Source: Blautia massiliensis (ex Durand et al. 2017)
GTDB taxonomy: Bacteria > Bacillota > Clostridia > Lachnospirales > Lachnospiraceae
Assembly (NCBI RefSeq): GCF_001487165.1
Contig: NZ_LN913006.1
Span: 991,293 to 1,055,292 of the forward strand
Direction: 5' to 3'
Length of the DNA: 64,000 nt
The position numbers and the translations under genes were made by a program. Below the pieces are notes generated by a model. It did no database searches. It was not told the DNA's origin and saw only the letters and a list, made by a program, of their open reading frames with translations. Every line of letters starts with the position of its first letter. Position 1 is the first letter of the stretch. This document shows, one piece after another, positions 18,397-63,919 of the stretch.

Positions 18397-18409
18397 GAGG
18401 AAGAAGAGC

Positions 18410-33693: not shown

Positions 33694-33712
33694 TAAAATA
33701 TTTTGGTGCAAT

Positions 33713-33729
33713 GTCACCTGACAGGCGAC
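33713..33729. promoter_or_regulatory. 17-bp palindrome, copy 2
   Basis: GTCACCTGACAGGCGAC, the most symmetric copy: CCTG-A-CAGG within GTC/GAC. It lies 20 bases after the XRE-like gene and 113 before the VWA gene. Confidence 0.6.
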
Positions 33730-34495: not shown

Positions 34496-34560
34496 ACTGG
34501 AAAAACTACTGGAAATGGTAGAGACGGAATTGAAAATGAAAAATTTGGAGGAAAAAGATT

Positions 34561-36464: not shown

Positions 36465-36466
36465 GG

Positions 36467-37054
36467 ATGGCAAGATTAAGTTTGGAAGAACGACTGAACC
36501 GGATTGAGGATAAGATTTCTGAAAAGTCTTTCCGTGAAAATAAAGGACTTGGAAATGAAGTCGGATATTATGTGTTTGATTACGATCCGAGAGCAGAGCT
36601 GGAAGTACGGAATCATATCGCATACTTAAAAGACAGAATCAACAATGGCAATAAAGATTTTAAAATCATAGAATTTGACCTGTTTCACACGATGATTCAG
36701 GTATTGGAGGAAGAAGGATATCTGGAAGCCTTCTTTGATCTGGAAAAAGACAATGGTTTTTTTGATATGGCAGACAGTCTGGTAGAGACATTGGGACTGG
36801 ATGAAACGAACGAACTGAACCTGATTATCTCAAAGATTTTACAGGAGGATCTGACAGACAGCGTGATTTTCCTGACAGGAGTTGGAAAATGCCATCCGAT
36901 CATTGCAAGCCATAATATTTTGAACAATTTACATCAGGTACTGGACAGTGTGCCGGTTGTGATGTTTTATCCTGGAGAATACAGCGGACAGGATCTGAAA
37001 TTATTTGGAACGATGGATTCCAGAAATTATTACCGGGCATTCCGGCTTGTGTAA
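36467..37054 (+). CDS. brxB: BREX protein BrxB (DUF1788)
   Basis: A 195-residue core protein. It contains YVFDYDPRAELEVRNHIAYL near the N-terminus and FLTGVGKCHPIIASHNILNNLH followed by VVMFYPGEYSGQDLKLFG near the end, typical of DUF1788. It is needed for BREX defence, with unknown activity. Tight spacing to brxA and brxC. Confidence 0.93.
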   Translation: MARLSLEERLNRIEDKISEKSFRENKGLGNEVGYYVFDYDPRAELEVRNHIAYLKDRINNGNKDFKIIEFDLFHTMIQVLEEEGYLEAFFDLEKDNGFFDMADSLVETLGLDETNELNLIISKILQEDLTDSVIFLTGVGKCHPIIASHNILNNLHQVLDSVPVVMFYPGEYSGQDLKLFGTMDSRNYYRAFRLV

Positions 37055-37071
37055 AACAAAGGAGAAGAACA

Positions 37072-40662: not shown

Positions 40663-40687
40663 ACATTCCAGTGGGAGGAAACAGTAC

Positions 40688-44473: not shown

Positions 44474-44497
44474 ACAGAGAATACAGGAGGTGGAAAA

Positions 44498-46787: not shown

Positions 46788-47584
46788 ATTTTTATACATT
46801 ACCGTCTACCAATTATAATGGAATTACGTTTGACGATGCGTGTATCTGGGAAGAAAATATTGAAGATATTGAAACTGGTGATAATTTGTATGTACCAAAT
46901 GAGTTTTATGATAAGCCTGATAAAAATGGTATTACTGCTATAGAGTTTATATATGGACAGTCAAATGATTTGAGTACATATATAATGCGAATTTTATGTA
47001 CAAAGCATCATGTAGAAGATACTTATAATTGTTTAGAAACAAAGGATTTAACAGGCTATTTAGCATTTCCACATGATTTTATAGAAGATGAAAAACTAAA
47101 AAAATGCGTACATAAGTCGAGAAACGATTTACTTACTATTAAAAGAAATTATGCATTAAAGTCAAAAAGTTATGAAGATTATTTACAGTGGTTCCCAAAC
47201 ATATTTCCTAATTTATTATTTCATGAGCATTCATGTGATTCAATAGAAAAATTGGGAGATTTTGAAAGTAATATAGAAGAACTCCATAAACATTTAAGTG
47301 TGTTAAATGATTATGGACAAAAAATATATTTTGGTGAGGACAAAAATGAATCCGTTGCATTGAAAAATTTGGCTAGTAAATATGGAATCATATGCTCTGG
47401 AAAAGGATCGAATGAAAATATAGAATATAAAGAAATCTATAAAGGCGTGGAAATTACTTGTAATCCACATACAAAACTCCATTCTCGATATAGTAACCAG
47501 AGGATTTATTTTTGTTGGGGAAGAGATGAGATAGAAAATCATAAAATAATTATTGTGAAAATAGGAGATCACTGGAAGAAGTAA
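46775..47584 (+). CDS. Unknown protein, trio gene 3
   Basis: A 269-residue protein with no family I recognise. The N-terminal two thirds are acidic with many Asn and Asp. The end (about 220-269) has NPHTKLHSRYSNQRIYFCWGRDE followed by KIIIVKIGDHWKK. This His/Lys/Arg cluster between beta strands resembles the active end of small RNase toxins, but the likeness is only by eye. As the most variable member beside a DUF262 and an ATPase gene it may be the effector. AT-rich. Confidence 0.6.
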   Translation: MQSIDFYTLPSTNYNGITFDDACIWEENIEDIETGDNLYVPNEFYDKPDKNGITAIEFIYGQSNDLSTYIMRILCTKHHVEDTYNCLETKDLTGYLAFPHDFIEDEKLKKCVHKSRNDLLTIKRNYALKSKSYEDYLQWFPNIFPNLLFHEHSCDSIEKLGDFESNIEELHKHLSVLNDYGQKIYFGEDKNESVALKNLASKYGIICSGKGSNENIEYKEIYKGVEITCNPHTKLHSRYSNQRIYFCWGRDEIENHKIIIVKIGDHWKK

Positions 47585-47659
47585 AAAGTATAAGGTGTAT
47601 TGATATGACAGAAATATTTAAATCTTGCAGTTAATAACAAAATAACGAGGTAATGCCGA

Positions 47660-48976
47660 ATGAATTTAAAAAGTATCAAAATTAAAAATTATAGATGCTT
47701 CAAAGACGTAGAAATTGATTTTGATAATCGTGTTACATTAGTAGTTGGAAAGAATGGGGCTGGTAAAACAGCAATATTGGATGCTGTAGCTGTTTCTGTC
47801 GGCACATTTTTATTAGGTATTGATGGAGGAGTAGGCAGAAGTATATTAAAGGATGATGCACGATATGAGTTTTATGATTTGGAGGGAACAATTGATTCAC
47901 AGCATCAGTTTCCAGTAGAAATTGAAAGTATTGGCGATTGTAGGAAAGAGGAAAATGTGAAGTGGGTTCGTTCCCTGAATTCAGAGAATGGTAAAACTAC
48001 GATTAAAGATGCGGTAGAATTAACAAGTATCGCAAAGAAAGTGCAGCAGCAGATTATGAAGGGATATAAGACTTTGATACTCCCGTTAATATCTTATTAC
48101 GGAACCGGACGTTTGTATGCACAGAAAAAAGAAAAAAGAAATATTAAATCTTTGACAGAATTTAGACGTCAAGTTGGATATGTAGATTGTATGGCAGCGG
48201 AATCTAATGAGAAACTGATGTTGAATTGGTTTCAAACGCAGACATTAAAAAGTCTTCAGAAGCAACAGAAAACAGGATTGCTGGAACCTCCAATACTTTT
48301 AAAAACTGTTGAAAAAGCTATCTGCAGATGTTATGAGAGAATTAGTGGATCGAAAAATGCGAGTATTTCTTTTGATCTTGACACACATAGATTAATGCTG
48401 GAATTCGAAACAACAGAAGGTGATGCGCAAAAATTTGCAATGGATGAAATGAGCGATGGATATAAGAATACACTTAGTATGATTGGAGATATTGCTTATC
48501 GTATGGCCGTTTTAAATCCTATGTTAGGAGAGCAGGTACTGGAAAGAACGCCGGGGATTGTTTTGATTGATGAAATTGATTTGCATTTACATCCGCAGTG
48601 GCAGCAGACGATTTTAAGCGATCTTCAGGCAATTTTTCCCAAGATTCAATTCATAGTCAGCTCTCATGCACCAGCAGTAATTAATTCAATTTCAAGAGAA
48701 AAGATCCGAATTTTGGATAATGGAAAAATCTATATGCCGTCAGCACAGACTTATGGAAGAGATGCGAATTCTATATTGAGAGAGGTTATGCAAGTATCAG
48801 AACGTCCAGTTGATATTAAGCACCGTATGAACTTATTCTATGCATATATGGATGAAGATAATTACGAAGAAGCAGACAAGATTCTGATGGAGATTGAGGC
48901 AATCGTCGGAACAACAGATCCGGATATTGCAGCCGCAAGGACATCTCTGGATTTGGAAAGAATATTGGGGGAATAG
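47660..48976 (+). CDS. ptuA: Septu-like ATPase PtuA
   Basis: A 438-residue ATPase. Walker A is VVGKNGAGKTAIL (G30-T37), the signature region is DEMSDGYKNTLSMIGDIAYRM, and Walker B is GIVLIDEIDLHLHPQWQQTIL (near residue 300). SSHAPAVINSI follows. It pairs with the HNH gene 3 bases downstream, as in Septu and in the related retron-linked ATPase/HNH pairs. No reverse transcriptase is present here, so Septu is the better fit. Confidence 0.85.
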   Translation: MNLKSIKIKNYRCFKDVEIDFDNRVTLVVGKNGAGKTAILDAVAVSVGTFLLGIDGGVGRSILKDDARYEFYDLEGTIDSQHQFPVEIESIGDCRKEENVKWVRSLNSENGKTTIKDAVELTSIAKKVQQQIMKGYKTLILPLISYYGTGRLYAQKKEKRNIKSLTEFRRQVGYVDCMAAESNEKLMLNWFQTQTLKSLQKQQKTGLLEPPILLKTVEKAICRCYERISGSKNASISFDLDTHRLMLEFETTEGDAQKFAMDEMSDGYKNTLSMIGDIAYRMAVLNPMLGEQVLERTPGIVLIDEIDLHLHPQWQQTILSDLQAIFPKIQFIVSSHAPAVINSISREKIRILDNGKIYMPSAQTYGRDANSILREVMQVSERPVDIKHRMNLFYAYMDEDNYEEADKILMEIEAIVGTTDPDIAAARTSLDLERILGE

Positions 48977-48979
48977 CGT

Positions 48980-49657
48980 ATGATTGTTGTAAAAAGAGGA
49001 AAAGAGCCCAATAGTCTTTTAAAATTTCGTAAAGAAAATCCGGATGCAGATTATGAGACGGATATGCCTACGGATGTACTGAAGGATATTAGAGAACAAA
49101 TGTGGAAAGAGCAAAGCGGATTATGTGCATATTGTATGAAGCGAATTAAAGAGCCAGGTGTTGTGAGAATCGAGCATTGCAGACCAAGACATCCACAAGA
49201 TGAAAAGGAACATGATAGAAAGGCAACCTTGGATTTTAAATGGATGCTTGGTGTATGTTATGGAAATAGTCTGTTAAGAGGTGTGAAACCGGAAGACAAG
49301 ACTTGTGATGCACATAGAGGAAATACGGAGCTTACTATTAATCCATTTGATGAAGTATCAGTCAGGAAGATAAAATATAAAACAGATGGCAGTATTTATT
49401 CGGATGATGTTGAAATCAATAAAGATGTAACGGAGACATTGAATTTAAATTGTGAGGCACTTTCTTTACCACAGATACGGAAAAATGTTTTGATGACAGT
49501 GCAGGATAGAATCACGAAAAAATGCAAGGGCAAATCACAAGATGCATTTATGCATGAGTTAGAACGCATTTATGCAAGTCTTGTACAGGAAAGAAATTTA
49601 ACCCCGTATTGTGGAATTATTATTTCTTGGCTTGAGAACAAATTGAAGATATCATAA
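48980..49657 (+). CDS. ptuB: Septu-like HNH nuclease PtuB (TIGR02646 type)
   Basis: A 225-residue protein. The HNH region has CAYCMKRIKEPGVVRIEHCRPRHP (CxxC and the active His) followed by the C-terminal ligands near CYGNSLL and CDAHRGN. The start MIVVKRGKEPNSLLKFRKENP is typical. PtuB is the DNA-cutting partner of PtuA. The gene lies inside the BREX operon between the trio and pglZ. Confidence 0.85.
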   Translation: MIVVKRGKEPNSLLKFRKENPDADYETDMPTDVLKDIREQMWKEQSGLCAYCMKRIKEPGVVRIEHCRPRHPQDEKEHDRKATLDFKWMLGVCYGNSLLRGVKPEDKTCDAHRGNTELTINPFDEVSVRKIKYKTDGSIYSDDVEINKDVTETLNLNCEALSLPQIRKNVLMTVQDRITKKCKGKSQDAFMHELERIYASLVQERNLTPYCGIIISWLENKLKIS

Positions 49658-49699
49658 ACTGTGCAGAGATTTGGCACAAATAAACTTGAAGGTGAAAAG

Positions 49700-52246
49700 A
49701 TGGATTTACAAAATATACAAGAGCAGTTGAATACTGAATTTTCTAAGGAAGATATCCGTATTATATTCTGGTTTGATGATAAAGGGGAATATGAAGACGA
49801 GGTGTCTGAGCTGCAACTGGATAATGCAAAATTACATATTCTGGATGGAGCAAATTGGTTTTATTCCAAATGGTTATTAAATGAATCAGATACAGAGAGT
49901 AAGTATCTTGTATATGCACCATTCCCAAAACCAAGTGATGCAGAGAACCCATTGGCGGATATGTGTTTTTATTCAGCACTGTATTATACGGATCGCATTT
50001 CTCAGATGTCACAGGAAATGGGGATTGATAATCGATTCAAGGAGTATCTGGCTCAGTATAGTAATTTCTGGAAAGATAGAATTCGTATTGAAAAGTTTAA
50101 AGAGCTTAGTATAGACCATTTCAATGTGGAAACCATTGATATTGGTCTTATTGCTGTGCTTACAAATGTGGAAACTCCAAATTTTGAAGAGATTATAAGA
50201 CAGTTATTATTGAATAATAGCGAAGCATATATGAAGGCATTAGAGGATAATGGACTTTTAGAAAAATTCTGGGAATTATGCGAGAGATATTTTGGATATC
50301 AGTCGGAGAGTCCCAATATGGATGATTTGGCAGCATGTATGCTTTTGACTTATGCATCTGTGGCATTAAAGGATACGCTGCCAGCTGTCTTGAAGTCTTA
50401 TGTGTTGAAAAAGAAGAATGATGTAGTTGTGTTTGTCCGGAATTTGATGGACAATGTATTGTATCAGGAGGTTTATGATGCATTATCTGAAAAAGTGGAC
50501 AAAACGTTGCGGGTAGTAAGCAGAATTCGTGATGAGCTGAAAAAGGATATAGATAAATCAAAAGATCATTCAGCGCAGCTTTTAGATATTGTAAATTGTG
50601 ATGCCTTTTTGGGGGTGGATGATATTTTAATTGACTGGGCACTGGAGCAACTTAATAATGAGATCCTGGATGCCCAAATAGATGATATGAACATTGCACA
50701 GATCGCTGATCAGAGAACTGCGAAGACATGTCATTTTGGAAATGTATATAAAAACGAATATCAGGCAATTAAATATGCATATCAGATGATGAAAGCAGTG
50801 TCGGTTCTGGAAGTGCCTAGTGATATTAAGGGAATGGTGGAAGCTTATCAGACTCAGACATATTTAATTGATTCATATTATAGATGGTTTTACAGTGCTT
50901 ATGACTGTATAGGAGATGTGGAGAGATTTTCCCAGGTGAGAGAACGAATTGAAAATATGTACTCTTTCACTTATCTGCAGAAAATAACACCGAAGTGGAA
51001 TCAGGAGCTGACAGATAATCTAATGACGGATACCGGATTAAAACAGCAGGAAGATTTTTATCGTAACTATATGAATGCCTATGAAGGTAAGAAGCGTGTG
51101 ATTGTTATTATTTCTGATGCGTTTCGATATGAATGTGCAAAGGAACTGATGGAACGTTTGGAAATGGATGAAAAATGTACGCCGAAATTGGAGTGTATGG
51201 TCAGCGGACTACCTTCGGTGACATCAGTAGGAATGGCAAGCTTTTTACCGCATAACGAATTGCAGGTGGATGAGAATTTAAATGTTACAGTGGATGGACA
51301 AAACTGTGGAGATCTGGCGGCAAGGGATAAAATCTTAAAGGCAAGGAATGAAAATAATGTAGCAGTAGCTTTTGATGACTTGATCAATGCAAGTCAGGAA
51401 CGGCTCCGTGAACTTTTGCAGGGGAAAAATATTGTCTATATTTATCATAATCAGATAGATGCCAGAGGAGATAAGCCTGCAAGTGAAAATGAAGTGTTTA
51501 AAGCTTGCGAAGAGGCAATCAAAGAAATTCATCGATTGGTTCACAGACTGACAATGTATTTGTCTGCTCCTAAATTTTTTATTACGGCAGATCATGGATT
51601 TTTATATAAGCGAGATAAATTACAGGAGTATAATAAGGTATCTTATGACAGAGAAATTTGTACTTATACAAATAAACGTTTCTTGATTACAAAACAGCGA
51701 CTGAAGGATACAGGAATGAGATCAAGGGCGATGTCATATTTAAAGAATTTTTATGTTACAACACCGATAGGCACAGATATTTTTAAAGTTGCTGGTGGTG
51801 GGCAGAATTATGTGCATGGAGGATCTTCCTTACAGGAAATGCTGATACCGGTTATTGAAGTGACGACAAATGCCAAGTTTGTAGCATATAATTATGTTGA
51901 TGTGGTTTTGACATCAACAAATCGTAAAGTAACAAATTTGATTACCTACTTTGATTTTATCCAGACAGAGAAAGTGACCGATACTATGAAGGCAAGAAGC
52001 CTGGTAGCATATTTTAGGACAGAAGATGGAGAGAAAATATCTTTTGATGTACCGATCATGGCAAACAGTAGAGAAGACGCACCAGAGAAGAGAACATTCC
52101 ATGAGAAATTTACATTGAAGTCCAGAGAATATAAGTATGGTGATAAATATTATCTGGTGTTGGCAGATGCGAATGATGAGAAGAATATTTTGCAGCAGTA
52201 TGAATTTATGATTGATATTGCGTTTGTGGATGATTTTGGATTTTAA
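49700..52246 (+). CDS. pglZ: BREX phosphatase-like protein PglZ
   Basis: An 848-residue type I PglZ from the ATG at 49700, which follows GAAGGTGA; an earlier frame extension lacks a site. The alkaline-phosphatase-like core has VIVIISDAFRYECAKELMERL (metal-binding Asp) and FITADHGFLYKRD (second metal site). A C-terminal beta domain follows. It works with PglX in modification. Confidence 0.94.
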   Translation: MDLQNIQEQLNTEFSKEDIRIIFWFDDKGEYEDEVSELQLDNAKLHILDGANWFYSKWLLNESDTESKYLVYAPFPKPSDAENPLADMCFYSALYYTDRISQMSQEMGIDNRFKEYLAQYSNFWKDRIRIEKFKELSIDHFNVETIDIGLIAVLTNVETPNFEEIIRQLLLNNSEAYMKALEDNGLLEKFWELCERYFGYQSESPNMDDLAACMLLTYASVALKDTLPAVLKSYVLKKKNDVVVFVRNLMDNVLYQEVYDALSEKVDKTLRVVSRIRDELKKDIDKSKDHSAQLLDIVNCDAFLGVDDILIDWALEQLNNEILDAQIDDMNIAQIADQRTAKTCHFGNVYKNEYQAIKYAYQMMKAVSVLEVPSDIKGMVEAYQTQTYLIDSYYRWFYSAYDCIGDVERFSQVRERIENMYSFTYLQKITPKWNQELTDNLMTDTGLKQQEDFYRNYMNAYEGKKRVIVIISDAFRYECAKELMERLEMDEKCTPKLECMVSGLPSVTSVGMASFLPHNELQVDENLNVTVDGQNCGDLAARDKILKARNENNVAVAFDDLINASQERLRELLQGKNIVYIYHNQIDARGDKPASENEVFKACEEAIKEIHRLVHRLTMYLSAPKFFITADHGFLYKRDKLQEYNKVSYDREICTYTNKRFLITKQRLKDTGMRSRAMSYLKNFYVTTPIGTDIFKVAGGGQNYVHGGSSLQEMLIPVIEVTTNAKFVAYNYVDVVLTSTNRKVTNLITYFDFIQTEKVTDTMKARSLVAYFRTEDGEKISFDVPIMANSREDAPEKRTFHEKFTLKSREYKYGDKYYLVLADANDEKNILQQYEFMIDIAFVDDFGF

Positions 52247-53575: not shown

Positions 53576-55654
53576 ATGGAAGAATATAATAATGTACAGG
53601 AAAATACAACAGAGGACAAGCGAGAAGAAATAAAGCAAAAACTCCGTCAGTACTATGACGGTCGTATTGTCCGGAAGGATTTAACAAAGTCCATTCGTGA
53701 AGGCGCCAATGTTCCGGTTTATGTATTGGAATATCTTCTCGGACAGTATTGTAATTCCGATGATGAAGAGATCATTGAAGAAGGAGTAGAAAACGTAAAG
53801 CGTATTTTGAGAGATAATTATGTGCGTCCGGATGAGGCACAAAAGATTCTCTCTCTTTTGCGTGAAAGAGGTAGTTATACGGTGATTGATCGTATCACGG
53901 TTGTATTGAATACAAAGGAAGACCGTTATGAAGCGACGTTTTCCAATTTGGGCATAAAAGGGATTCCGCTTCATCCAGATTATGTGAAGGATTATGACAG
54001 ATTACTCTGTGGGGGTATCTGGTGTATTCTGCAGATGGAGTATGAGTTTATCGAGGAAGATAAGAAAAATACGCAGCCAATCCGTATCCGGAAGCTGACG
54101 CCGATCCAGATGCCTCATGTGGATATGGATGAAGTGAAGAATGGCAGAAAAGCTTTTACCAAGGATGAATGGATGGATATTCTTCTCCGTTCAACTGGTT
54201 TGGAGCCGGAGCGTTTCAGCGAGAGAGCAAAGTGGCTGTTGATTGCCCGTATGATTCCGCTGGTGGAGAATAACTTTAATCTTTGTGAGTTAGGACCTCG
54301 ATCCACCGGTAAGTCTTACATATATGAGCAGATTTCTCCAAATAGTATTCTTGTTGCCGGTGGTCAGACAACAGTTGCTAACCTTTTCTATAATATGTCC
54401 AATCATACGGTTGGTCTTGTTGGCATGTGGGATTGCGTAGCTTTTGATGAGGTTGCTGGTATCAAGTTTAAAGATAAAGACGGAATTCAGATTATGAAAG
54501 GATACATGGCTTCCGGAGCATTTTCACGAGGAAAAGCAGAGATTCAGGCAAAAGCGTCCATGGTGTTTGTGGGAAATATCAATCAGAGCGTGGAAACTCT
54601 TTTAAAAACTTCCAGTTTATTTGATCCATTCCCATCTGAAATGGGAACCGATACAGCATTTCTGGATCGTATGCATTGTTATATTCCTGGATGGGAGATT
54701 CCGAAATACAGACCGGATTCTTTTACCAATGATTATGGATTTATTACCGATTATTTGTCAGAGTTTATGCGTGAATTGCGTAAAGACAGCTACAGTGATC
54801 TGATGGATAAGTATTTCCGTTTGGGAAACAACCTGAACCAACGTGATACCATTGCAGTCCGTAAGATGATTTCCGGATTTACGAAGTTGTTATATCCGGA
54901 TGGAGAAGTAACAAAAGAAGAGTTACGTGAGATTGTAGAGATTTCGTTGGAACTTCGCCGTAGAGTAAAAGAGCAGCTGAAAAAAATTGGTGGTATGGAG
55001 TTCTATGATGTGAATTTTTCCTATACGGATAATGACAGTTTTGAGGAACATTATGTTTCTGTTCCGGAGCAGGGTGGCGGTAAGCTGATTCCTGAGGGAA
55101 TGGGTAAACCAGGATCTGTTTATACGGTTTCCAAGTCAAAGACAGGTATGATCGGTTGTTATATGTTGGAAACTCAGATGATGCCTGGTAATGGAAAGTT
55201 GACTTGTACCGGTATTGGCGCAGGAAAAGAGCCGAAAGAAGCAACAAATACAGCATTTAACTATTTGAAAGCTAATGGAAACCGAATTTCCGGTCTGATT
55301 AGTACCACAACAAAGGACTATATTATTAATTATCAGGATATGCAGGGTATTGGAATGACAGGAAATCTGGCATTGCCGACATTGATTGCAATCTGTTCCG
55401 CAGCACTTGGAAAAACACCGCTGAACAGTCTTGCAATTCTTGGAGAAATCAGTATTGGCGGCACTTTGATTAAAGTAGATGAACTGGCAAGTACGTTGCA
55501 GGTATGCCTGGATAGTGGTGCAAAGAAAGTGTTGCTTCCAATTACTTCTGCCGGAGATTTGGGAACGGTACCATCGGATCTGGTTGGTGCATTTAGCCTT
55601 ATTTTTTATTCTTCCGTGGAAGAGGCAGTATTTAAAGCACTTGGTGTGGAGTAA
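53576..55654 (+). CDS. brxL: BREX Lon-like protein BrxL
   Basis: A 692-residue protein. It has an AAA+ core with Walker A in LGPRSTGKSYIYEQ (near residue 240) and CVAFDEVAGIKFKDKDG as Walker B. The C-terminal Lon-protease-like domain contains LGEISIGGTLIKVDEL and ALDSGAKK-type segments (here CLDSGAKKVLLPITSAGD). BrxL forms a DNA-binding ring in studied BREX systems. Last core gene; the set brxA, brxB, brxC, pglX, pglZ and brxL is complete. Confidence 0.95.
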   Translation: MEEYNNVQENTTEDKREEIKQKLRQYYDGRIVRKDLTKSIREGANVPVYVLEYLLGQYCNSDDEEIIEEGVENVKRILRDNYVRPDEAQKILSLLRERGSYTVIDRITVVLNTKEDRYEATFSNLGIKGIPLHPDYVKDYDRLLCGGIWCILQMEYEFIEEDKKNTQPIRIRKLTPIQMPHVDMDEVKNGRKAFTKDEWMDILLRSTGLEPERFSERAKWLLIARMIPLVENNFNLCELGPRSTGKSYIYEQISPNSILVAGGQTTVANLFYNMSNHTVGLVGMWDCVAFDEVAGIKFKDKDGIQIMKGYMASGAFSRGKAEIQAKASMVFVGNINQSVETLLKTSSLFDPFPSEMGTDTAFLDRMHCYIPGWEIPKYRPDSFTNDYGFITDYLSEFMRELRKDSYSDLMDKYFRLGNNLNQRDTIAVRKMISGFTKLLYPDGEVTKEELREIVEISLELRRRVKEQLKKIGGMEFYDVNFSYTDNDSFEEHYVSVPEQGGGKLIPEGMGKPGSVYTVSKSKTGMIGCYMLETQMMPGNGKLTCTGIGAGKEPKEATNTAFNYLKANGNRISGLISTTTKDYIINYQDMQGIGMTGNLALPTLIAICSAALGKTPLNSLAILGEISIGGTLIKVDELASTLQVCLDSGAKKVLLPITSAGDLGTVPSDLVGAFSLIFYSSVEEAVFKALGVE

Positions 55655-55689: not shown

Positions 55690-56787
55690 TTGATTATTTT
55701 TGAACAGGATTTTGAAGAAATGCTGTGGAAGTATCAGGCAGCTCTGGATGATAGAAAGAAATTTACCGCATTGGTGAAAGACTTATTTCCGGATCAGGCA
55801 AAAAATGTAAATCTATTATTGATGGCATATAATATGGGAATTGCTCAGGATATACAGAGTGCATCTTATATCAATAATACATTTGCTTTTCGATATGTGA
55901 AGCAGCTTATGGATGATTTTGGTATGAGCCGTGTTAATGCAGACTGGATTGTATCGGTGTGGTGTTCCTGTTATGGAGGAAAAGTGCTGGGAAAAGCCTG
56001 TGACATTTCTGTACAGAAGCAGGGAAGTGGGCCGGCGATTCAGGGCGAACAGTCATCTTCTGGTAAAGTTTACGGAGATCTTTTTGAATATAAAAGAAGT
56101 CAGAGAGGAAATGGGTTGGCAGTTACTGGATTTCGTGGATCCAAAAATCAGACAATCATTTTTCAAAACAGATCTGGAAATACTCCAGTAGTAGAAATTG
56201 CGGCTGACAGTTTTTGTAATTCTTCTACAGAGGAAGCGATTTTGACAGAGGGAATTGTCTGCATTGGAAGAAATGCTTTTTCTGGATGTGATAAATTACA
56301 TCAGGTAGTACTGCCGATCAGTATCGAGGAGATCGATGATTACGCTTTTGAAAATTGCGGAAATTTAAAATCAGTATCCTTACCAGGGGCGCTTAAGACA
56401 ATTGGAAATGAAGCTTTTAAAGGAACTGGCTTAAGAACAATAGCGATTCCTGAAAGTGTGTTTTGGATAGGTAATGGTGTGGTGGCGGATTGCCAGTTGC
56501 TGGAACATGTAACGATTCCTTCAAATATGGACAAGATACCAGAGCATATGTTTGAAGGCTGCATAAATTTGAAAAAAGTGGAATTGCATGAGAGGTTGAA
56601 TGAAATCGGTGAACGGGCATTTTTCGGATGCAGTTCTTTGGACTTTATTGTGATTCCAGATAGTGTAAAAAAGATCGGGAAGAATGCATTTACTAATACG
56701 GATAAACAGTTTATTATGCAATGTTCTTTTGGATCTTATGCAGAAGAATACGCCAGAAAGAACAAATTTAAATATCAACTGGTATAG
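55690..56787 (+). CDS. BspA-type leucine-rich-repeat protein with novel N-terminal domain
   Basis: A 365-residue protein. The start is uncertain: TTG at 55690 is close to GAAGGTG, and ATG at 55720 is the alternative. The N-terminal 100 residues form a helical domain (KFTALVKDLFPDQAKNVNLLLMAYNMG, then MSRVNADWIVSVWCSCYG), likely a protein-docking unit. Residues 160-350 are LRR_5 repeats (FENCGNLKSVSLPGALKTIG type). No signal peptide is seen, so the repeats are inside the cell. It is a candidate sensor of block C. Confidence 0.8.
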   Translation: MIIFEQDFEEMLWKYQAALDDRKKFTALVKDLFPDQAKNVNLLLMAYNMGIAQDIQSASYINNTFAFRYVKQLMDDFGMSRVNADWIVSVWCSCYGGKVLGKACDISVQKQGSGPAIQGEQSSSGKVYGDLFEYKRSQRGNGLAVTGFRGSKNQTIIFQNRSGNTPVVEIAADSFCNSSTEEAILTEGIVCIGRNAFSGCDKLHQVVLPISIEEIDDYAFENCGNLKSVSLPGALKTIGNEAFKGTGLRTIAIPESVFWIGNGVVADCQLLEHVTIPSNMDKIPEHMFEGCINLKKVELHERLNEIGERAFFGCSSLDFIVIPDSVKKIGKNAFTNTDKQFIMQCSFGSYAEEYARKNKFKYQLV

Positions 56788-56802
56788 CCTAGAATTCAGA
56801 TT

Positions 56803-56819
56803 GTCGCCTGCTATGCGAC
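56803..56819. promoter_or_regulatory. 17-bp palindrome, copy 3
   Basis: GTCGCCTGCTATGCGAC differs from copy 1 at a single base. It lies 50 bases before the GRAM-like gene. Confidence 0.65.
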
Positions 56820-56868
56820 AACGAAAGAGAAAATTCACGGTATATTAACAGAACAAAGAGGTGAAAGG

Positions 56869-57378
56869 ATGGGGCTTTTTGATATACTGTTTGGAAATCG
56901 AAATCAGATTCCCACGGTGACAACGATTTTACCGGATGTAGCAAGGCAGGAGATTATCGCGGGCAGACTTCCGATTTTGAATACAGACAAATTATTCCTG
57001 AAACGGGGAGAAAAGATACATTTTATTGATAAAGCAATCAATATGGAAAAGAAGACTGTAAAAGAGTTCCGACATGTGGGAGGAAGTGCTCCCGGATTAT
57101 TTGAAGGGACCAGGGTGAGTTCAGGAAGAGGAAAAACAGTCGAACATACTGAATTAATTCAGCATAGAGGAATTTTATATATAACAAATCAGAGAATTGT
57201 GTTTCAGGCAACGGAGTGGGGATTTGACAAGACCTATCGTTATCTGACCGCAATTACTCCATACAGCAATGCCTGTGAGATGCAATTTGGAAATAAATCC
57301 TATTGCATGATCGTGGCGGATGGCAGTGTAGTAAATCAGGTATTGCAGTTGATCAAACAAAGGAGGCAGATACCATAA
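56869..57378 (+). CDS. GRAM/PH-like domain protein
   Basis: A 169-residue protein. The start MGLFDILFGN is amphipathic and may touch the membrane. The core (about 40-165) looks like a GRAM/PH-type beta barrel: LKRGEKIHFIDKAINMEK, then HRGILYITNQRIVFQATEWGF and LTAITPYSNACEMQFGNKSYCM. Such domains bind lipids or proteins. It overlaps the kinase gene by one base (TAATG), so the two are coupled. Confidence 0.7.
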   Translation: MGLFDILFGNRNQIPTVTTILPDVARQEIIAGRLPILNTDKLFLKRGEKIHFIDKAINMEKKTVKEFRHVGGSAPGLFEGTRVSSGRGKTVEHTELIQHRGILYITNQRIVFQATEWGFDKTYRYLTAITPYSNACEMQFGNKSYCMIVADGSVVNQVLQLIKQRRQIP

Positions 57379-58676
57379 TGGAAGGACAATTAAAAAATGG
57401 AACAATTCTCACTTCAGAGAGTGGAAACAAATATGAGATAGTCAGTCTCCTGGGAGCCGGTGGGCAGGGAGAAGTCTATGATGTGAAATGTAGCGGCAAT
57501 CATTATGCACTGAAATGGTACTTTAAGGGCAGTGCTACGGAACGTCAGAAAAAGATTTTGGAAACGATCATTGCCAAAGGTTCACCAGATGAAAGTTTTC
57601 TCTGGCCTATGGAGCTGATTGTGCCGGTGAAAAGTGATCTGTATGGTTATATCATGCCTCTTCGACCGAAAAATTATAAAAGTATCGTGGACTTGATGAA
57701 GAAACGTGTGAATCCATCTTTTTATACCCTCTGCAGAACTGCTTTTAATCTGACCAGAGGCTACCAGAAACTGCACGCTATGGGAGCCAAGTATCAGGAT
57801 ATTTCTTTTGGAAACTTATTCTTTAATCCGGATAATGGAGATGTACTGATTTGTGACAATGACAACGTATCCTTTGATAACAGTAAGCCAGGTGGAGTCC
57901 TTGGTACACCGGGATTTATGGCACCGGAGATTGTAAGAGGTGAGAAACGTCCATCCAAAGATACAGACAGATATTCGCTTTCTGTGCTGTTGTTCTATCT
58001 TTTTATGGTGAATCATCCACTGGAAGGAAAATTGGAAGCAAGTATCCGTTGCATGGATATGGCAGCCAGAGTGAAGTTGTATGGCACAGATCCGGTATTT
58101 ATCTTTGATCCGAATAATAAGACGAACAGACCGGTGAAAGGAATCCATGATAATGCAACGATTTACTGGCCACTGTATCCGGAGAAATTGCGTCAGATGT
58201 TTACCAGAGCATTTACAGTCGGACTGAATGAGCCGAGCAAACGTATTACAGAGCCGGAATGGATGACGTTATTCTCTAACATGATGAGCGGAATGTTACA
58301 GTGTTCCTGCGGTGCACAGCTCTTTTATGATGAAGATCTGGAAACAAAGGGTGTGGCACATACCTGTTGGAACTGTGGAAAGACAATACAGGTACCAAAT
58401 AAGATTATCATTGGAAAGAATCGGGTGCTGTTACATCAGAATACGAAGCTGTTACATCACCATGTTTACGATGATTTTGATATGGATACCGTAGTAGGTT
58501 CTGTCGTTCAGAATCCAAAGAACCCAGCACTCTGGGGAATCCGGAATGAGGACAAGGTGAACTGGACGTATCAGAAAGCAGATGGCACACAGATACCAGT
58601 TGCTCCAGGAAAGACAGCTGGAATTGCGAAAGGTGTAAAGATTTTATTCCCTGAATCAACAGGGGAGTTCAGATAA
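57378..58676 (+). CDS. Serine/threonine kinase with zinc ribbon (TerY-P kinase)
   Basis: A 432-residue protein from the ATG at 57378. The Gly-rich loop is LLGAGGQGEVYDV, the ATP-binding Lys is K46 in YALKW, and the catalytic Asp is D141 in YQDISFGNLF in place of the usual HRD form. DFG is replaced by DND in ICDNDNVSF. A zinc ribbon follows (CSCGAQLFYDEDLE...CWNCGK, near residues 313-343), then a C-terminal beta domain. This matches the kinase of TerY-P triads, which phosphorylates partners and is opposed by the PP2C at 59536. Confidence 0.88.
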   Translation: MEGQLKNGTILTSESGNKYEIVSLLGAGGQGEVYDVKCSGNHYALKWYFKGSATERQKKILETIIAKGSPDESFLWPMELIVPVKSDLYGYIMPLRPKNYKSIVDLMKKRVNPSFYTLCRTAFNLTRGYQKLHAMGAKYQDISFGNLFFNPDNGDVLICDNDNVSFDNSKPGGVLGTPGFMAPEIVRGEKRPSKDTDRYSLSVLLFYLFMVNHPLEGKLEASIRCMDMAARVKLYGTDPVFIFDPNNKTNRPVKGIHDNATIYWPLYPEKLRQMFTRAFTVGLNEPSKRITEPEWMTLFSNMMSGMLQCSCGAQLFYDEDLETKGVAHTCWNCGKTIQVPNKIIIGKNRVLLHQNTKLLHHHVYDDFDMDTVVGSVVQNPKNPALWGIRNEDKVNWTYQKADGTQIPVAPGKTAGIAKGVKILFPESTGEFR

Positions 58677-58718
58677 GGATTGAGAAAAAAATAAAAGCAC
58701 ATGTGGGAGGGATCAACC

Positions 58719-59519
58719 ATGGAAGTATTACAAAGACCAGGCGGAGAGTTAGCAACAAGACCAATTCATTTCTTTTGGGTAGTAGATTGTTCCGGATCTA
58801 TGTATGGAGAGAAGATTGGAATCGTAAATAATACGATTCAGGAGTGCATACCGGAAATGCGCTCAGCAGCGGACAATAATCCAAATGCACAACTTCTGAT
58901 TCGTGCATTACAGTTTTCATCAGGAGCAAGTTGGATCACATCCAGTCCGGTGCCGGTAGAGGATTATGGCTGGGAAGATATGGATGCCAACGGACTGACA
59001 GAACTTGGAAAAGCATTTGATCTTCTGGCTGCACAGTTAAGTATTCCACCAATGCCGGAGAGAGCATTGCCGCCGGTGATTGTACTTCTTTCAGATGGAC
59101 AGCCGACAGATGATTATAAAAAGAGCATAGAGAAACTGAAAAAACTGCCATGGTTCCGAAAAGCAGTGAAGATTGCAATCTCCATTGGACAGGATGCAGA
59201 TGATGAAGTATTGATTGAGTTTACTGGAAATAAAGAGCTTGTTCTGCAGGCGAATAATGCAACAGCACTTGCAAAGATGATTAAATGGGCATCTACCACA
59301 GCTTCTATGGTATCCGCACCATCAAGTAAGCCAATGAATTCGGTTGCAGCATCTACACCTGCAGCATCCGTATCCACGCCTGCAGCTGCATCAGGAGCTT
59401 CCGTAGCATCTGCACCGGCAGATGATCCGTTTGCACCGGCAAACAATGGGGCACCACTGGTACTTGATATGAGTAATATTCCAAATCCAGATGATTTTGA
59501 TGAAGGAGCTGTCTGGTAA
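58719..59519 (+). CDS. terY: TerY-like VWA protein
   Basis: A 266-residue intracellular VWA protein from the ATG at 58719 (GGGAGG site). The MIDAS is D23-C-S-G-S27 in FWVVDCSGSMYG, with VIVLLSDGQPTDDY after it. The last 60 residues are an Ala/Ser/Pro linker ending in an acidic tail (NPDDFDEGAVW), possibly a kinase or phosphatase docking end. It is the second member of the triad. Confidence 0.88.
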   Translation: MEVLQRPGGELATRPIHFFWVVDCSGSMYGEKIGIVNNTIQECIPEMRSAADNNPNAQLLIRALQFSSGASWITSSPVPVEDYGWEDMDANGLTELGKAFDLLAAQLSIPPMPERALPPVIVLLSDGQPTDDYKKSIEKLKKLPWFRKAVKIAISIGQDADDEVLIEFTGNKELVLQANNATALAKMIKWASTTASMVSAPSSKPMNSVAASTPAASVSTPAAASGASVASAPADDPFAPANNGAPLVLDMSNIPNPDDFDEGAVW

Positions 59520-59535
59520 GAAGAGGAGGAGTCGG

Positions 59536-60369
59536 ATGAAACGCTATATATGTGACGGAATCGTCAAGGGTGCGACTCACGTAAGAAACCAAATGCCTTG
59601 CCAGGATAATAAACGAATTGTAGAGATTTCAGATAAAATTGCAATCATCGCAGTTGCAGACGGACATGGAAGTTCTAAATGTCCAAGAAGTGATAGAGGT
59701 TCCATGATTGCTGTTAATTCTTTCTATGAAGTCATGAAGAACTACCTGAAAGTTTATGGAGAAGATGAAGCAGGACTTTCTAATCTGATTACTTTCCTTA
59801 ACCGGGAAGGGGATATGCGGTTTGCCCAGGATGTATGTGAAGAGTGGCAGGCAAGAGTGAAACAGTCTTTTTATAAAAATAAAGTAGATGGAATGACCGA
59901 TGAAGATGGAAATATCAAGTGGCCGTCCGTATTTTCATTGTATGGAACGACACTGCTTGGAATGCTGGTGACTGACAGCTTTGTATTTTCCTTCCAGATC
60001 GGAGACGGAGATATCAGTGTTGTGACAAAAGAAGAAGTCGAACCACTGGTAGAACCGGAGAAATTCCTTGGAACAGAAACACATTCCCTTTCAAAACCGG
60101 ATGCATGGAGAAAAGCCGTGGCATCGGTGCGAAGACGGGAAATGGAAAGTGAAGAGCCATATATGTATATCCTTTCGACAGATGGATTTGCAAACAGTTA
60201 TACTTCTGATGAAGAGTACCAGAAGACATGTAAGGATTATCTGCAGATGCTTCAGGAGCATGGAGCTGATACAGTACAGGCAAATCTGAAGAACTGGCTG
60301 ACGGAGACCAGTGAACTTGGATGTGGAGATGATATCACAGTTGTTATGGTGTATTTTACAGGAGAGTAA
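59536..60369 (+). CDS. PP2C-family protein phosphatase (TerY-P phosphatase)
   Basis: A 277-residue metal-dependent phosphatase. Motifs: D42-G-H-G in VADGHGSSKCPRSDRG, YGTTLLGMLV, LSTDGFANSY and GDDITVVMVYF. It should reverse the action of the kinase upstream. The ATG at 59536 follows GAGGAGG. The kinase, VWA and PP2C genes lie in direct succession with gaps under 45 bases. Confidence 0.92.
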   Translation: MKRYICDGIVKGATHVRNQMPCQDNKRIVEISDKIAIIAVADGHGSSKCPRSDRGSMIAVNSFYEVMKNYLKVYGEDEAGLSNLITFLNREGDMRFAQDVCEEWQARVKQSFYKNKVDGMTDEDGNIKWPSVFSLYGTTLLGMLVTDSFVFSFQIGDGDISVVTKEEVEPLVEPEKFLGTETHSLSKPDAWRKAVASVRRREMESEEPYMYILSTDGFANSYTSDEEYQKTCKDYLQMLQEHGADTVQANLKNWLTETSELGCGDDITVVMVYFTGE

Positions 60370-60383
60370 GGGAGTCACAGGAA

Positions 60384-61403
60384 ATGATTGTAGATCGCTA
60401 TTATTATCATCAACTGAATAAACAAGAACAGGCGATTTACAAGGCATTTTACAAAGGTGTAATGTCACATCAGGAGATTATTCCAATTCCGGTGCGTGGA
60501 GAATTCAGCCAGGAGAGTTTTGAGCGTATATTCATGGCAATGACGAGGGATAATCCATTGATTTATTTCTTGAATCAGTCCGCTTGTAGCACTGCCAGTG
60601 ATATGTTTGGACGTCTTGCGATATGTCCGCAGTATTTTTTTTCGAAAGAAAAGGTAAAAGAATATAATCGTAAAATTGAAAAAGTAGTGAATGAACTGGC
60701 AGGACAGCTGCATTTGCTGGAATGTAATGATTATGAAAAAGAACTTCGGGTGCACGACTGGATTTGCCAGAACATTGAATATGATTATGAAGAAGCTGAT
60801 ACGGATAAAGTGTCCAGAGTGATTGCCTCACATAATATACTCGGTGTTTTTGCACATCGTAAAGCTCAGTGTGAAGGAATTGCTAAAGCAGTAAAGGTTC
60901 TTCTGAATGCAGTTGATGTGAAATGTATCGTTGTAACGGGTGATTCAATAAAAGGCGGACAGTGTGTGCCACATGCATGGAATATTGTGGATATTGATGG
61001 AGAACCGTATCAGTTAGATGTCACCTGGGATGTAGGTGCAACAGGGCAGAATAAGCAATCCATGGTATATGATTATTTTAATCTGACAGATGAATTAATG
61101 AATTGGGATCACAAAGCAGATAGTAGCTTGCCAGCATGCAGAAGCAAGAAAGCAAATTATTATGTGCAGAAAGGTTGTTCTTTTCAGATGAGACACCGAC
61201 TTATGGCATATATAGACAGGTTAATTGAAAAGAATGAACGGATATATGAATTCCGTGCAGAAGGTAGATTGAATAAAGTTGCCATAGAGAAGGAAGTTGC
61301 TGATCATATTGTGCAGAAATTATATGAGCAGGGAAGAAGTAGCGTTGGAATAAGAACATGTTCCAACAAGAAACTTGGAATATATTGTATAGAAATATCT
61401 TGA
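60384..61403 (+). CDS. Transglutaminase-like cysteine protein
   Basis: A 339-residue protein. The catalytic triad of the transglutaminase/protease-like fold is seen as C163 in AQCEGIAKAVKVLL, H197 in PHAWNIVDIDG and D212 in LDVTWD. The N-terminal 100 residues and the C-terminal 90 are helical. There is no signal peptide, so it acts inside the cell, as a protease or cross-linking enzyme. It starts 14 bases after the phosphatase gene. Confidence 0.85.
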   Translation: MIVDRYYYHQLNKQEQAIYKAFYKGVMSHQEIIPIPVRGEFSQESFERIFMAMTRDNPLIYFLNQSACSTASDMFGRLAICPQYFFSKEKVKEYNRKIEKVVNELAGQLHLLECNDYEKELRVHDWICQNIEYDYEEADTDKVSRVIASHNILGVFAHRKAQCEGIAKAVKVLLNAVDVKCIVVTGDSIKGGQCVPHAWNIVDIDGEPYQLDVTWDVGATGQNKQSMVYDYFNLTDELMNWDHKADSSLPACRSKKANYYVQKGCSFQMRHRLMAYIDRLIEKNERIYEFRAEGRLNKVAIEKEVADHIVQKLYEQGRSSVGIRTCSNKKLGIYCIEIS

Positions 61404-61416
61404 AGAGGTTAAAGAT

Positions 61417-61653
61417 ATGCTGGAATTAACGATTTATGGAATTGGATTTTTCTTATGTACGTTGCTGATTCAATATATGCTTTTCAAATTCAGAAAAAAC
61501 CATAATTACGGACCGAATGGCGTATGGGTTGGAAATAGAGCAATTATGGTTTTGTGTGTGGTCGGCATTGTGAATCATAGGATGGAATATCTCGCAGCAA
61601 TACTTGGATTTATCTGTGCGGATGAGATTGGCAAGGCTACTGGCTGGCATTGA
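61417..61653 (+). CDS. Small membrane protein, 78 residues
   Basis: Two hydrophobic segments (YGIGFFLCTLLIQYMLF, then MVLCVVGIVNHRMEYLAAILGFICA). It is 13 bases after the transglutaminase gene. It may be the membrane arm of block C; no family is recognised. Confidence 0.65.
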   Translation: MLELTIYGIGFFLCTLLIQYMLFKFRKNHNYGPNGVWVGNRAIMVLCVVGIVNHRMEYLAAILGFICADEIGKATGWH

Positions 61654-61713
61654 GAATATTAAAGAAAATAATGAACAACTGTATGATTATTTAAAAAGTC
61701 AGGCGAGGATAGA

Positions 61714-62403
61714 ATGGGAACAGTAAAAGCTACACTGGTAGGAGTAAGTAATTATGATAACCCAAGAACACCAAATTTAGAAGCTTGTAAAAACGATATA
61801 ATAGCAGTGAAGGATGCATTGGTAAATGGATTATGCGTATCCCAACGGGATATTAGAACTTTGGGAAGTTCTGGTACGGTTAATATAAATGAGCTTGCTG
61901 ATGAATTGAAAATAGCATCGATGTTGGTAGAAGCGGATGATACGTATATTTTTTACTTTTCTGGTCATGGTAATAATGGAACACTTGCACTCAGTGAAAC
62001 TAATATACGTGTACAAGAAGTGATTGAGTTGGTGAATGCGATAAAAGCAAAAAACAAAATTATCATTTTGGATAGCTGCCGCTCAGGTGATTTTATGATT
62101 CCTAAAGTTGAAACATTAGGAATTAGTGAATTGGTTGAAGAGTTTGCAGGAGCAGGATATGCAGTTATGGCTTCTTGTGGAGCAAGCGAGAACTCGGCTT
62201 TTTATCCACCGGAAAATAAAATAAGCTTGTATACACATTTTTTATGCAATGCATTAACTGCGGATTTTATAATAAAAAAGGGAAAAAAATCCCTTGAAGA
62301 AATAAACGAACTTATTATTCGAATGACAGATATATGGAATCAAAAAGGCGATAATATTCAGCATCCTGTGTTCAGAGCTAATATAACAGGAACTAAGTCA
62401 TGA
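61714..62403 (+). pseudogene. Caspase-like peptidase, N-terminal part, cut by IS200
   Basis: A 229-residue caspase domain with the catalytic pair intact: H85 in YFSGHGNNGT and C122 in ILDSCRSGDF. It opens TVKATLVGVSNYDNPRTPNLEACKNDI, as in bacterial metacaspases. The frame runs into the IS200 end and stops at once (NITGTKS). The rest of the protein appears to continue at 63062 beyond the IS. The caspase domain itself might still fold and act without its tail. Confidence 0.8.
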
Positions 62404-63061
62404 ACCACCAGTTCAACTGGTGGTTTGATTATGCCCCTATAAGGGGCCTATGCCTGCAACGCCTGAAAGGCGGATGCCTCAAGCACTTATACCGGCTGGC
62501 CTCTAAAAGAGGCTATCTTCTAGTATCTTCTCTTCTCGATTCTTCTTTTTGTTGCTGAATGTATTCCTTTACCGCATCTTCTGTGATATTGCCTACTGTT
62601 GCGACATAATATCCTCTGGCCCAAAAAGCTTTTGACCATCCATTTACACTTTCCGGATATTTATCGTGTATCATTAATGCACTTTTTCCTTTTATGTACC
62701 CTACCACATCTGACACTTTTTCGCTTGGCGGAATGCCTAAACACAAATGTACATGATCTGCGCATACTGCACCTTCTACTATTTCTATGTTCCGGTAATC
62801 GCACAGTTTTTTTATTATTTCTCTTACATCTGCTTTTAATCTTCCGTACATAATTCGTTTTCTATACTTTGGTATAAACACTATATGATACTGGCATTTA
62901 TACCTTGTATGTGATAAACTACTACTGTCCACGTTGGACCGCCTCCTATTCTCTTTAGTATTGGCTTGAGACACCTTTACTATTGTATCATAGGAGGCTT
63001 TATTATACATTCTACAACGTCACTACTACACTATTCGCCCCAGCATAGCTGGGGGATTAGC
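62404..63061 (-). mobile_element. IS200 element inserted in the caspase gene
   Basis: A single-gene IS200/IS605-group element of about 660 bases. Right end: hairpin AACCACCAG/CTGGTGGTT at 62403-62425, then GCCCCT/AGGGGC and further stems. Left end: CCCCAGC/GCTGGGG at 63038-63054. tnpA is on the minus strand. Ends are approximate, because this family makes no target duplication. Confidence 0.8.
62513..62932 (-). CDS. tnpA: IS200 transposase TnpA (Y1 HUH)
   Basis: A 139-residue single-strand transposase. The HUH motif is H60-V-H62 in CADHVHLCL and the catalytic Tyr is Y124 in VKEYIQQQ. The start is a GTG at 62932 with AGGAGG upstream; a longer frame reaches into the left end. All active-site residues are present, so the element may be mobile, and it might also move the tnpB element at 21254 if the ends are compatible. 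Confidence 0.93.
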   Translation of the reverse strand: MDSSSLSHTRYKCQYHIVFIPKYRKRIMYGRLKADVREIIKKLCDYRNIEIVEGAVCADHVHLCLGIPPSEKVSDVVGYIKGKSALMIHDKYPESVNGWSKAFWARGYYVATVGNITEDAVKEYIQQQKEESRREDTRR

Positions 63062-63919
63062 TCTTTCATTTATTTTCCGATTCAGAAGTATACGCCATAT
63101 GAAAAGCAAAATATATATAAAGATACTGATGAATATATTATATATGAGGTTGTGCCATTTCATCAATCTTTACAAAAACAATATACCGCTAAGGTTATTT
63201 TGAAATATCATTTTGCAGAATCTGATATTGTAAGAATAGTGAAAAGCATTGTTGATGATATAAAATATTCGAATGTTTATAAAAATGCGGCACAAGAACA
63301 GCGATTAAATGGTTTGCCAGCTAATATGATACGTTGTCATATGGGATATGATGAACAGGATATGGTAAAGTGTAATTTTGCTTGGATTACTATTTGGGTT
63401 GATGATACAATGGATAAAAAGCATTGGTATGGAAACGGAAAAAATTCCGAAATAATAGATGGGATATTTGTAGAAAGACAGATTTCTTATAATGCATTGA
63501 GGATGTTAAATCAGCAGACTGTAACACAAGAAGAATACATTAAACAAGCAAAACAATATTTAAATGAAATAATAGATTGCGCCAATCAATTCATTGCCCA
63601 ATATAGAGAATATTCTAATGATACTATTTCAGAGAACCAATTAGTCGATAATGTACAAATGTTTAACAGACAAATAACATCTTTATATTTTAAAATTACA
63701 GACCTTCCAAGTACACCGCTGAAATGTAATTCCTGGTCAGAATCGATTCAACAAATAGCAGCTACTATTCATGATTTTACATTGTTTTATGGACAAAAAA
63801 CAATGGATACTTGGAGTCAAGAGAATAGAAATCATCTCATGAAAGCATCACTAAAACGATATCAGCAAGAGATTGAACTAGTGAAACAGAAAGAAACAGA
63901 ATTATTGAGTGAAATATAG
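63062..63919 (+). pseudogene. C-terminal part of the caspase-like protein
   Basis: About 285 codons of open frame joined at the left to the IS end, without a start of its own. It begins near FIYFPIQKYTPYEKQN and reads well as a continuation of NITGT before the IS. The body is beta-rich then helical (IIDCANQFIAQYREYSNDT...), ending in a Lys/Glu coiled coil. No domain recognised; possibly the part that links the peptidase to its partners. Frame 2 here versus frame 1 before the IS fits an insertion whose length is not a multiple of three. Confidence 0.65.

Follow-up and report, generated by a model that had tools for sequence, protein, structure and literature searches.

The TerY-P triad, reportedly described in 2012 (Anantharaman), consists of a protein kinase with a zinc ribbon, a TerY-like VWA protein and a PP2C phosphatase, and to our knowledge neither its inputs nor its outputs are known. 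According to the relevant passages of PMC11090510, CoCoNuT systems of types II and III-A very often include TerY-P, and bacteriophage exclusion (BREX) counts among the restriction systems that are frequent in the same superoperons; the presence of TerY-P and BREX in one neighborhood is therefore not new in itself. In the modules tested in Gao 2020, as the same passages describe them, the zinc ribbon is replaced by an OB-fold. Here we analyze a TerY-P module that lies next to BREX, a known anti-phage system, in the gut bacterium Blautia massiliensis (ex Durand et al. 2017), within a stretch of 64,000 nucleotides (the window; contig 4, bases 991,293-1,055,292, in a genome of 3.7 Mb). Our reading, to which we give a probability of about 0.55, is that the module is a TerY-P phospho-switch that has a small helical adaptor domain at its center and is docked to a type I BREX operon at the operon's 3' end. 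Its genes are linked in a conserved order, their catalytic residues are intact, and the adaptor domain is shared by proteins with different partner domains.

The window was compared with 80 kinase loci, the best 80 of 299 relatives (kinase identity, 56-97%), by scanning genome contigs. Neighboring genes were found by open reading frame (ORF) calling combined with BLAST or HMM searches, which small genes may escape, and the loci are not independent, since 39 of the kinase rows form one clade. An earlier note on this DNA had proposed that eight co-directional genes between 55690 and 63919 form one unit. ORF calling and Pfam bear out the eight genes, the GRAM assignment being based on a motif recognized by eye and on the fold, but the limits of the unit need correction at both ends. 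The range up to 63919 takes in an opposite-strand transposase of the IS200/IS605 type and what appears to be a separated C-terminal part of a caspase gene, and it leaves out brxL, which lies directly upstream and is the first gene of the conserved block. The docking to BREX was missed. The module and the gene to which it is joined are as follows (aa, amino acids; LRR, leucine-rich repeat).

53576-55654, forward strand: brxL, 692 aa (PADLOC BrxL, 1113.6 bits), which ends the BREX genes and opens the conserved block
55720-56787, forward strand, ATG start: LRR protein, 355 aa, with an N-terminal adaptor domain and BspA-type LRRs (Pfam LRR_5, 4.5e-59)
55720-56013, forward strand: adaptor domain, ~98 aa, within the N-terminal ~100 aa of the LRR protein
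56869-57378, forward strand: GRAM/PH-like protein, 169 aa (fold, and motif by eye)
57378-58676, forward strand, ATG start: TerY-P Ser/Thr kinase with a C-terminal zinc ribbon and a further tail (Pkinase, 7e-16)
58701-59519, forward strand: TerY-like VWA protein with an intact metal-ion-dependent adhesion site (MIDAS) (VWA, 1e-6)
59536-60369, forward strand: PP2C phosphatase (PP2C_2, 3e-37)
60384-61403, forward strand: transglutaminase-like protein (transglutaminase core, 2e-8)
61417-61653, forward strand: 78-aa membrane protein, lineage restricted (3 of 80 loci, plus genome G350 at 58% identity)

The earlier note's identification of the triad stands: a kinase with a zinc ribbon is adjacent to a TerY-like VWA protein with a MIDAS and to a PP2C phosphatase. 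Residue conservation was scored in rows made up of the window protein and a single sequence from each locus, those below a length cutoff being left out. Kinase residues K47, D142, N147 and D161 and zinc-ribbon cysteines 310, 312, 331 and 334 are intact in 80 of 80 rows, window included, as are the VWA residues D29, S31, S33, T100 and D132 (DxSxS, T and D) in 76/76, the PP2C residues D42, D216 and D265 in 71/71, and the transglutaminase catalytic residues C163, H197 and D212 in 15/15. Among PADLOC models, the VWA and PP2C proteins match none and the kinase matches only those of other kinases, e.g., PD-T4-6 and MAD6. At its end the VWA protein has a linker rich in Pro, Ala and Ser, followed by an acidic tail with a C-terminal Trp (conserved in 75/76 rows), which looks like a docking peptide. 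The ORF of the LRR protein is open from a TTG at 55690, and its probable start is the ATG at 55720, matching relatives. The GRAM-like protein has no match in Pfam or NCBIfam; for its AlphaFold model (predicted local distance difference test score [pLDDT], 84.8), the first Foldseek match is the PH-like domain of Lam6 (E = 2e-3), and the further matches are mostly PH, PTB and FERM folds, none of them at E ≤ 1e-3.

The kinase itself is patchily distributed, occurring in 9 of 61 genomes in a draw of relatives and in 14 of 397 in a draw of the family, with the window genome counted in both. The VWA gene is present in 76 of the 80 kinase loci and the PP2C gene in 73. The earlier note had named linkage of the LRR, transglutaminase and caspase genes to the triad in other genomes as the observation on which its proposal would stand or fall. 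Such linkage is found for the LRR protein, in the form of its N-terminal domain (74/80), and for the transglutaminase (16/80), but not for the caspase (0/80); of the other additional genes, GRAM is linked to the triad in 27 loci and the small membrane protein in only the 3 mentioned above. BrxL is found in 15/80, and a small protein of the TerY_C kind (PF15616) in 40/80, its identity being taken from the query, a protein of G378 that matches TerY_C. As far as these sequences indicate, what unifies the kinase loci is thus the N-terminal domain of the LRR protein and not its repeats. The full order of the conserved block, brxL-LRR-GRAM-kinase/zinc ribbon-VWA-PP2C-transglutaminase, recurs in several genera.

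Behind the transglutaminase or membrane-protein gene lies a variable slot, which holds different large genes among relatives. In G001 it encodes an SNF2 helicase with a C-terminal adaptor copy (independent E value, 7e-6) and a GHKL/sacsin-type protein, in G350 an SF1 helicase whose adaptor copy is N-terminal, and in L044 an SNF2 and a sacsin-type protein with no adaptor copy detected. The slot of the window, behind the transglutaminase and membrane-protein genes, holds only a caspase gene that is apparently interrupted by an insertion sequence (IS). Elsewhere in the block, G381 has a Cas9-like 1,358-aa gene and three small genes between its LRR and GRAM genes (L024, 7654-13572; judged by eye from length and N-terminal sequence).

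By sequence comparison, the adaptor domain appears to be undescribed. When the 40 adaptor sequences of alignment A4 were searched singly against Pfam, no family was matched by more than one of them (best E, 0.03); a PDB profile search with the adaptor alignment gave a best E of 0.24, and Foldseek matches to the LRR protein model were dominated by the LRR part and uninformative on the adaptor. AlphaFold places six helices in residues 2-89. We detected the domain in 87 proteins from the 74 loci, at the N or the C terminus; 56 of these proteins have LRRs and 31 do not. Ten of the carriers were scanned with Pfam, yielding two DEAD and two UvrD helicases, an ankyrin, a TPR and a Sel1 plus RNA-polymerase-alpha-CTD-like protein, and three uninformative results. 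Nine of the 80 loci encode two or three adaptor proteins each. The signal is weaker in several loci of more distant kinases, and the six loci without it comprise 3.0-13.7 kb of sequence each.

The domain also leads back to the triad when genomes are searched for it. It occurs in 2 of 291 genomes in a draw of the class, the window genome and G702, in both cases beside TerY-P. In the family draw it was found at 12 places in 10 of 397 genomes, 8 of the 12 being within 9 kb of the kinase. Among the other places, that in G350 lies at a contig start beside PP2C, transglutaminase and membrane-protein genes, that in G310 is an LRR remnant behind brxL, and G329 has a second copy that lies 12 kb away from the kinase of this genome. 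The LRR protein may be a sensor, as the earlier note supposed, although its most widely shared part is the N-terminal domain and not the repeats.

The genomic connection to BREX runs through brxL. In all 15 BrxL loci, brxL adjoins the LRR gene on the same strand, with gaps of -14 to 96 bp, and the kinase follows the LRR gene. The GRAM gene lies between the two in 14/15 (in L041/G381 after an insert), the VWA and PP2C genes follow the kinase in 14/15, and the transglutaminase gene is present in 12/15; L063 ends with two more LRR-adaptor proteins. We also observed that on one contig (L026, 9518-10690, which is the same as L056, 4947-6119) a protein with a C-terminal adaptor is encoded directly 5' of brxL, such that adaptor proteins bracket brxL.

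The history of this union was examined in both partners. Mapped onto a tree of 81 kinases, linkage to BrxL requires four changes, and a single clade of all 16 BrxL-linked kinases is rejected by the approximately unbiased test (P = 1e-15; P = 2e-4 without L063). The surroundings of BrxL were surveyed at 24 places beyond the window (L024, L026, L125-L128 and L132-L149), drawn from 43 family genomes with BrxL. On a tree with 21 other Lachnospiraceae BrxLs, the 16 linked BrxLs (the window, 14 of the 15 BrxL loci and G310; L042 was left out at <300 aa) form one clade (100/99). When 12 BrxLs from a draw of the phylum are added (12 of 23 places; the remainder were the window itself, one duplicate, a second copy resembling a sequence already included, sequences ≤48% identical and fragments), 14 of the 16 remain together (Shimodaira-Hasegawa-like approximate likelihood-ratio support, 96), and L063 and L045 fall outside. 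We therefore claim a main clade of 14, and the claim of a single clade of 16 was dropped with the broader sampling. Because the BrxL-linked kinases are not one clade and two BrxLs lie outside, the trees suggest either repeated union or an exchange of parts; the union of BrxL and module probably traces mostly to one lineage, with at least one further event or part exchange. Distances between BrxLs correlate with those between kinases (15 rows; Mantel r = 0.48; 3 of 5,000 permutations), a result that shared descent would also yield.

Nine alignment columns separate the linked BrxLs from the 21 others, and three of these are hydroxyl residues in the linked set (Y378, S395 and Y529). The hydroxyl is present in 15 or 16 of the 16 linked BrxLs, and F, A and F, respectively, stand at these positions in 21, 18 and 21 of the 21 others. 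These residues are possible phosphosites but only a weak lead, since the two sets of BrxLs are not cleanly separate.

Genome G020 has kept BrxL and the module. The 35 kb upstream, to which the search for the BREX core was limited in this 5.3-Mb assembly (6% contamination), contains no BrxA, BrxB, BrxC or PglZ and only two short PglX pieces. Two ORFs of this locus (L016, 1399-1650 and 13123-13416) each repeat ~48 aa of the N-terminal region of PglX (85% and 77%), and two copies of a 211-aa gene also found at the upstream end of the window's island (below) flank unrelated cargo. The arrangement looks as if BREX had been replaced through exchange at repeated ends.

From these observations we infer a system in which adaptor-mediated assembly, a phosphorylation switch and recruitment of effectors would be combined with a functional link to BREX. 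The adaptor domains would bind one another or a triad protein. The repeat protein (LRR) would act as a scaffold or sensor, and the effector would be a second, variable ATPase that also carries an adaptor. The kinase and the PP2C phosphatase would set the phosphorylation state of the effector, the GRAM protein could anchor or localize it, and the transglutaminase-like enzyme may modify or cleave a partner. The module as a whole might then serve as an accessory or backup response of BREX, with BrxL as the contact point. A wider version, in which a new homotypic adaptor family defines a large and so far unrecognized class of conflict systems based on TerY-P in Clostridia and Synergistes, with the triad as switch, adaptor repeat proteins sensing, adaptor helicases acting as effectors and one branch having joined BREX via a BrxL that is phosphorylated, is a tentative extension that we consider less probable.

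The eight genes of the earlier note make up the 3' part of a 33.5-kb genomic island that also holds the following features.

32389-64000 and on to the window equivalent of about 65,892 (~1.9 kb past the window): genomic island, delimited by blastn against two genomes of the same genus
35829-52246, forward strand: type I BREX core (brxA, 35829; brxB, 36467; brxC, 37072; pglX, 40688; pglZ, 49661-52246)
44498-46787: NsnA/NsnB-like pair, embedded in BREX
47660-49657: Septu PtuA/PtuB pair, embedded in BREX

In a blastn comparison of the window and L002 with L173/G004 and L174/G028, the island is replaced by 33 bp in G004 and by 48 bp in G028. Because the whole stretch is absent from these two genomes, we assign BREX, Septu, NsnAB and the module to one island. 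The type I BREX set is complete in one cluster according to PADLOC (brxA, brxB, brxC, pglX, pglZ and brxL). Three proteins are encoded at the start of the island (33058-35388): the 211-aa protein, for which Pfam gives no match, another VWA-like protein and one with a double zinc ribbon. Each of the three has relatives near the module in G020 or G001. No TerD, TerC or TerB was found among the island proteins scanned with Pfam, a scan that ended with the window, 1.9 kb short of the island's end, and in which the genes of the BREX part are covered by PADLOC only.

Several observations weigh against the reading of an adaptor-based switch docked to BREX. No adaptor copy is present on the kinase, VWA or PP2C protein, and the window genome contains a single copy (E ≤ 1e-3), so that a homotypic bridge would have no partner there. 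The adaptor part of the AlphaFold model reaches a block pLDDT of only 65-84, the adaptor profile (E ≤ 1e-6) finds 7 of the 14 kinase genomes of the family draw, and the adaptor place in G427 has no triad gene within 20 kb. On the side of BREX, BrxL could be judged in 63 of the 80 loci, upstream sequence being too short in 17, and is present in 15 and absent from 48. L063 shows no VWA or PP2C gene before the contig ends, L048 has no transglutaminase gene, and the strongly supported branches of the broader BrxL tree, taken alone, still allow one origin.

That most of the judged loci are without BrxL would fit a general role in stress or envelope signaling, with the LRR protein and TerY-P forming a housekeeping phospho-relay, responsive to metal, redox or membrane state, that was carried into a BREX island. 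The same idea draws on 26 of the 80 loci (within L066-L106) in which the kinase gene shares the strand of rnfB, starts at -132 to +241 bp relative to the end of that gene, and is followed by LRR-adaptor, VWA and PP2C genes. The rnfB neighborhood is a housekeeping and not a defense context, which also speaks against our reading, and because the kinase stands directly behind rnfB in so many loci, an anti-phage role of the module is something that we infer. TerD-like genes lie beside the kinase in L032, L034 and L035, distant relatives of which L034 and L035 are nearly the same locus, and a gene resembling those of P-type ATPases is also present in two of the three (both by eye). However, the kinase tree places all 26 rnfB-linked loci in a single clade of 39 rows, mostly Lachnospiraceae, and they possibly reflect one historical event; adaptor copies are fused to kinds of helicase seen in defense loci; and the island that holds the window copy has many defense genes. 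The rnf operon of the window (14181-19201, named by eye) has no TerY-P kinase. We regard stress signaling as doubtful but as a serious alternative. A less probable one is that unrelated accessory genes pile up behind brxL and that module and BREX have no functional link. The slot 3' of brxL holds many unrelated genes in 21 other BrxL loci, of which two have hardly any sequence downstream, such that position alone could be a hot-spot effect. In G310, moreover, PglX, PglZ and BrxL (98%) are kept but no more than a remnant of the LRR gene is left; having lost the module, this genome suggests that BREX does not need it, and together with G020 it indicates that the two are separable. Both of these points count against docking as well. 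Chance accumulation nevertheless fits poorly with an order and strand of brxL, LRR and kinase genes kept in 15/15 loci down to 63% kinase identity, with the retention of BrxL and module side by side in G020, whose 35 kb of searched upstream sequence yielded no BREX core, with trees that suggest more than one union, and with the correlation of BrxL and kinase distances, ambiguous as the last is.

The earlier note had gone further and inferred a whole pathway in which the eight genes would form a complete sensor-switch-executioner system, with the transglutaminase-like protein and the caspase carrying out cell shutdown. The caspase ORF does lie 60 bp behind the membrane-protein gene, on the same strand, and has the His and Cys motifs typical of caspases (by eye), but the 3' end of the locus reads as follows.

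61714-62403, forward strand: caspase-domain ORF (caspase domain, 1e-13), part of an apparently interrupted gene and outside the conserved block
62513-63010, reverse strand: IS200/IS605-type Y1 transposase (Y1_Tnp, 8e-38), between two parts of the caspase gene
63068-63919, forward strand: apparent separated C-terminal part of the caspase gene, with a relative in G253

The single relative of the last region among 250 family genomes, in G253 (30%, 1e-49), joins it to caspase-domain residues 91-227 in one 420-aa frame, and for this reason the caspase gene of the window appears to be interrupted by the IS; the first 88 caspase residues of this relative lie in another frame, and no triad gene was found within the 3.8 kb of sequence available around it. 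Neither the caspase nor its C-terminal part (rechecked in the correct frame) occurs in any of the 80 kinase loci, the caspase is absent from the corresponding slot in G001, G033, G020, G381 and G350, and no adaptor domain was detected on it. A two-gene EACC1-caspase system was also considered: the match to NF047832 (84.3 bits) is below the cutoff of 140, and no EACC1-named match was found among the scanned proteins. The caspase was accordingly rejected as executioner and looks like a one-off passenger, apparently broken; a pathway ending in caspase-mediated cell death is very improbable.

If the reading of an adaptor-based switch docked to BREX is correct, the TerY-P triad gains a concrete set of partners and a testable coupling domain, the locus shows how a phospho-signaling switch may be added to BREX, and the adaptor domain becomes a search term for further effectors. 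The rnf-linked branch makes the question of defense versus stress directly testable for TerY-P.

Models of effector-associated domains (EADs) are present in Pfam. In the passages of PMC7159879 on MoxR-vWA and related conflict systems, EADs are small, predicted to be all helical, nonenzymatic and N- or C-terminal, and one such domain is common to neighboring proteins with differing partner domains. The adaptor domain resembles them as a small helical nonenzymatic domain with varied partners, and differs in having no consistent Pfam match, no copy in the triad core and one copy in the window genome, several copies per genome being typical of EADs but not obligatory. The same paper, in its passage on GAP1-N2 GTPase systems, describes the same kind of triad (kinase-zinc ribbon, PP2C and vWA) recruited to another conflict system; those systems are actinobacterial, and the passage mentions no adaptor domain or BREX. 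CoCoNuTs are built on McrBC-type CnuB/CnuC and on CnuH/CnuE, none of which was noticed here, although no profile search for them was made; their own LRR is fused to a CDC48-like ATPase, and the passages in question mention neither a BrxL-LRR-TerY-P block nor the adaptor (PMC11090510). Accessory effectors of BREX likewise occupy positions in or behind type I BREX operons, but those listed in PMC12839542 are nucleases and OLD-ABC modules; its main text has no matches for LRR, transglutaminase or caspase and its listing none for TerY or PP2C, supplements being outside this scope. In the titles, abstracts and passages surveyed, among them passages of PMC11090510, PMC7699616, PMC8195603, PMC7159879 and PMC12839542, we found no description of a BrxL-linked TerY-P block with an LRR/adaptor protein, and the novelty of the block and of the adaptor association is provisional within that literature, which excludes supplements, the 2012 Ter paper and the Gao paper itself. 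Like the TerY-P triad, then, the module has adjacent kinase-zinc ribbon, TerY-like VWA and PP2C genes, with the TerY_C-kind small protein in half of the loci compared; unlike it, the module adds a helical adaptor domain, LRR, GRAM and transglutaminase partners, and docking to BrxL.

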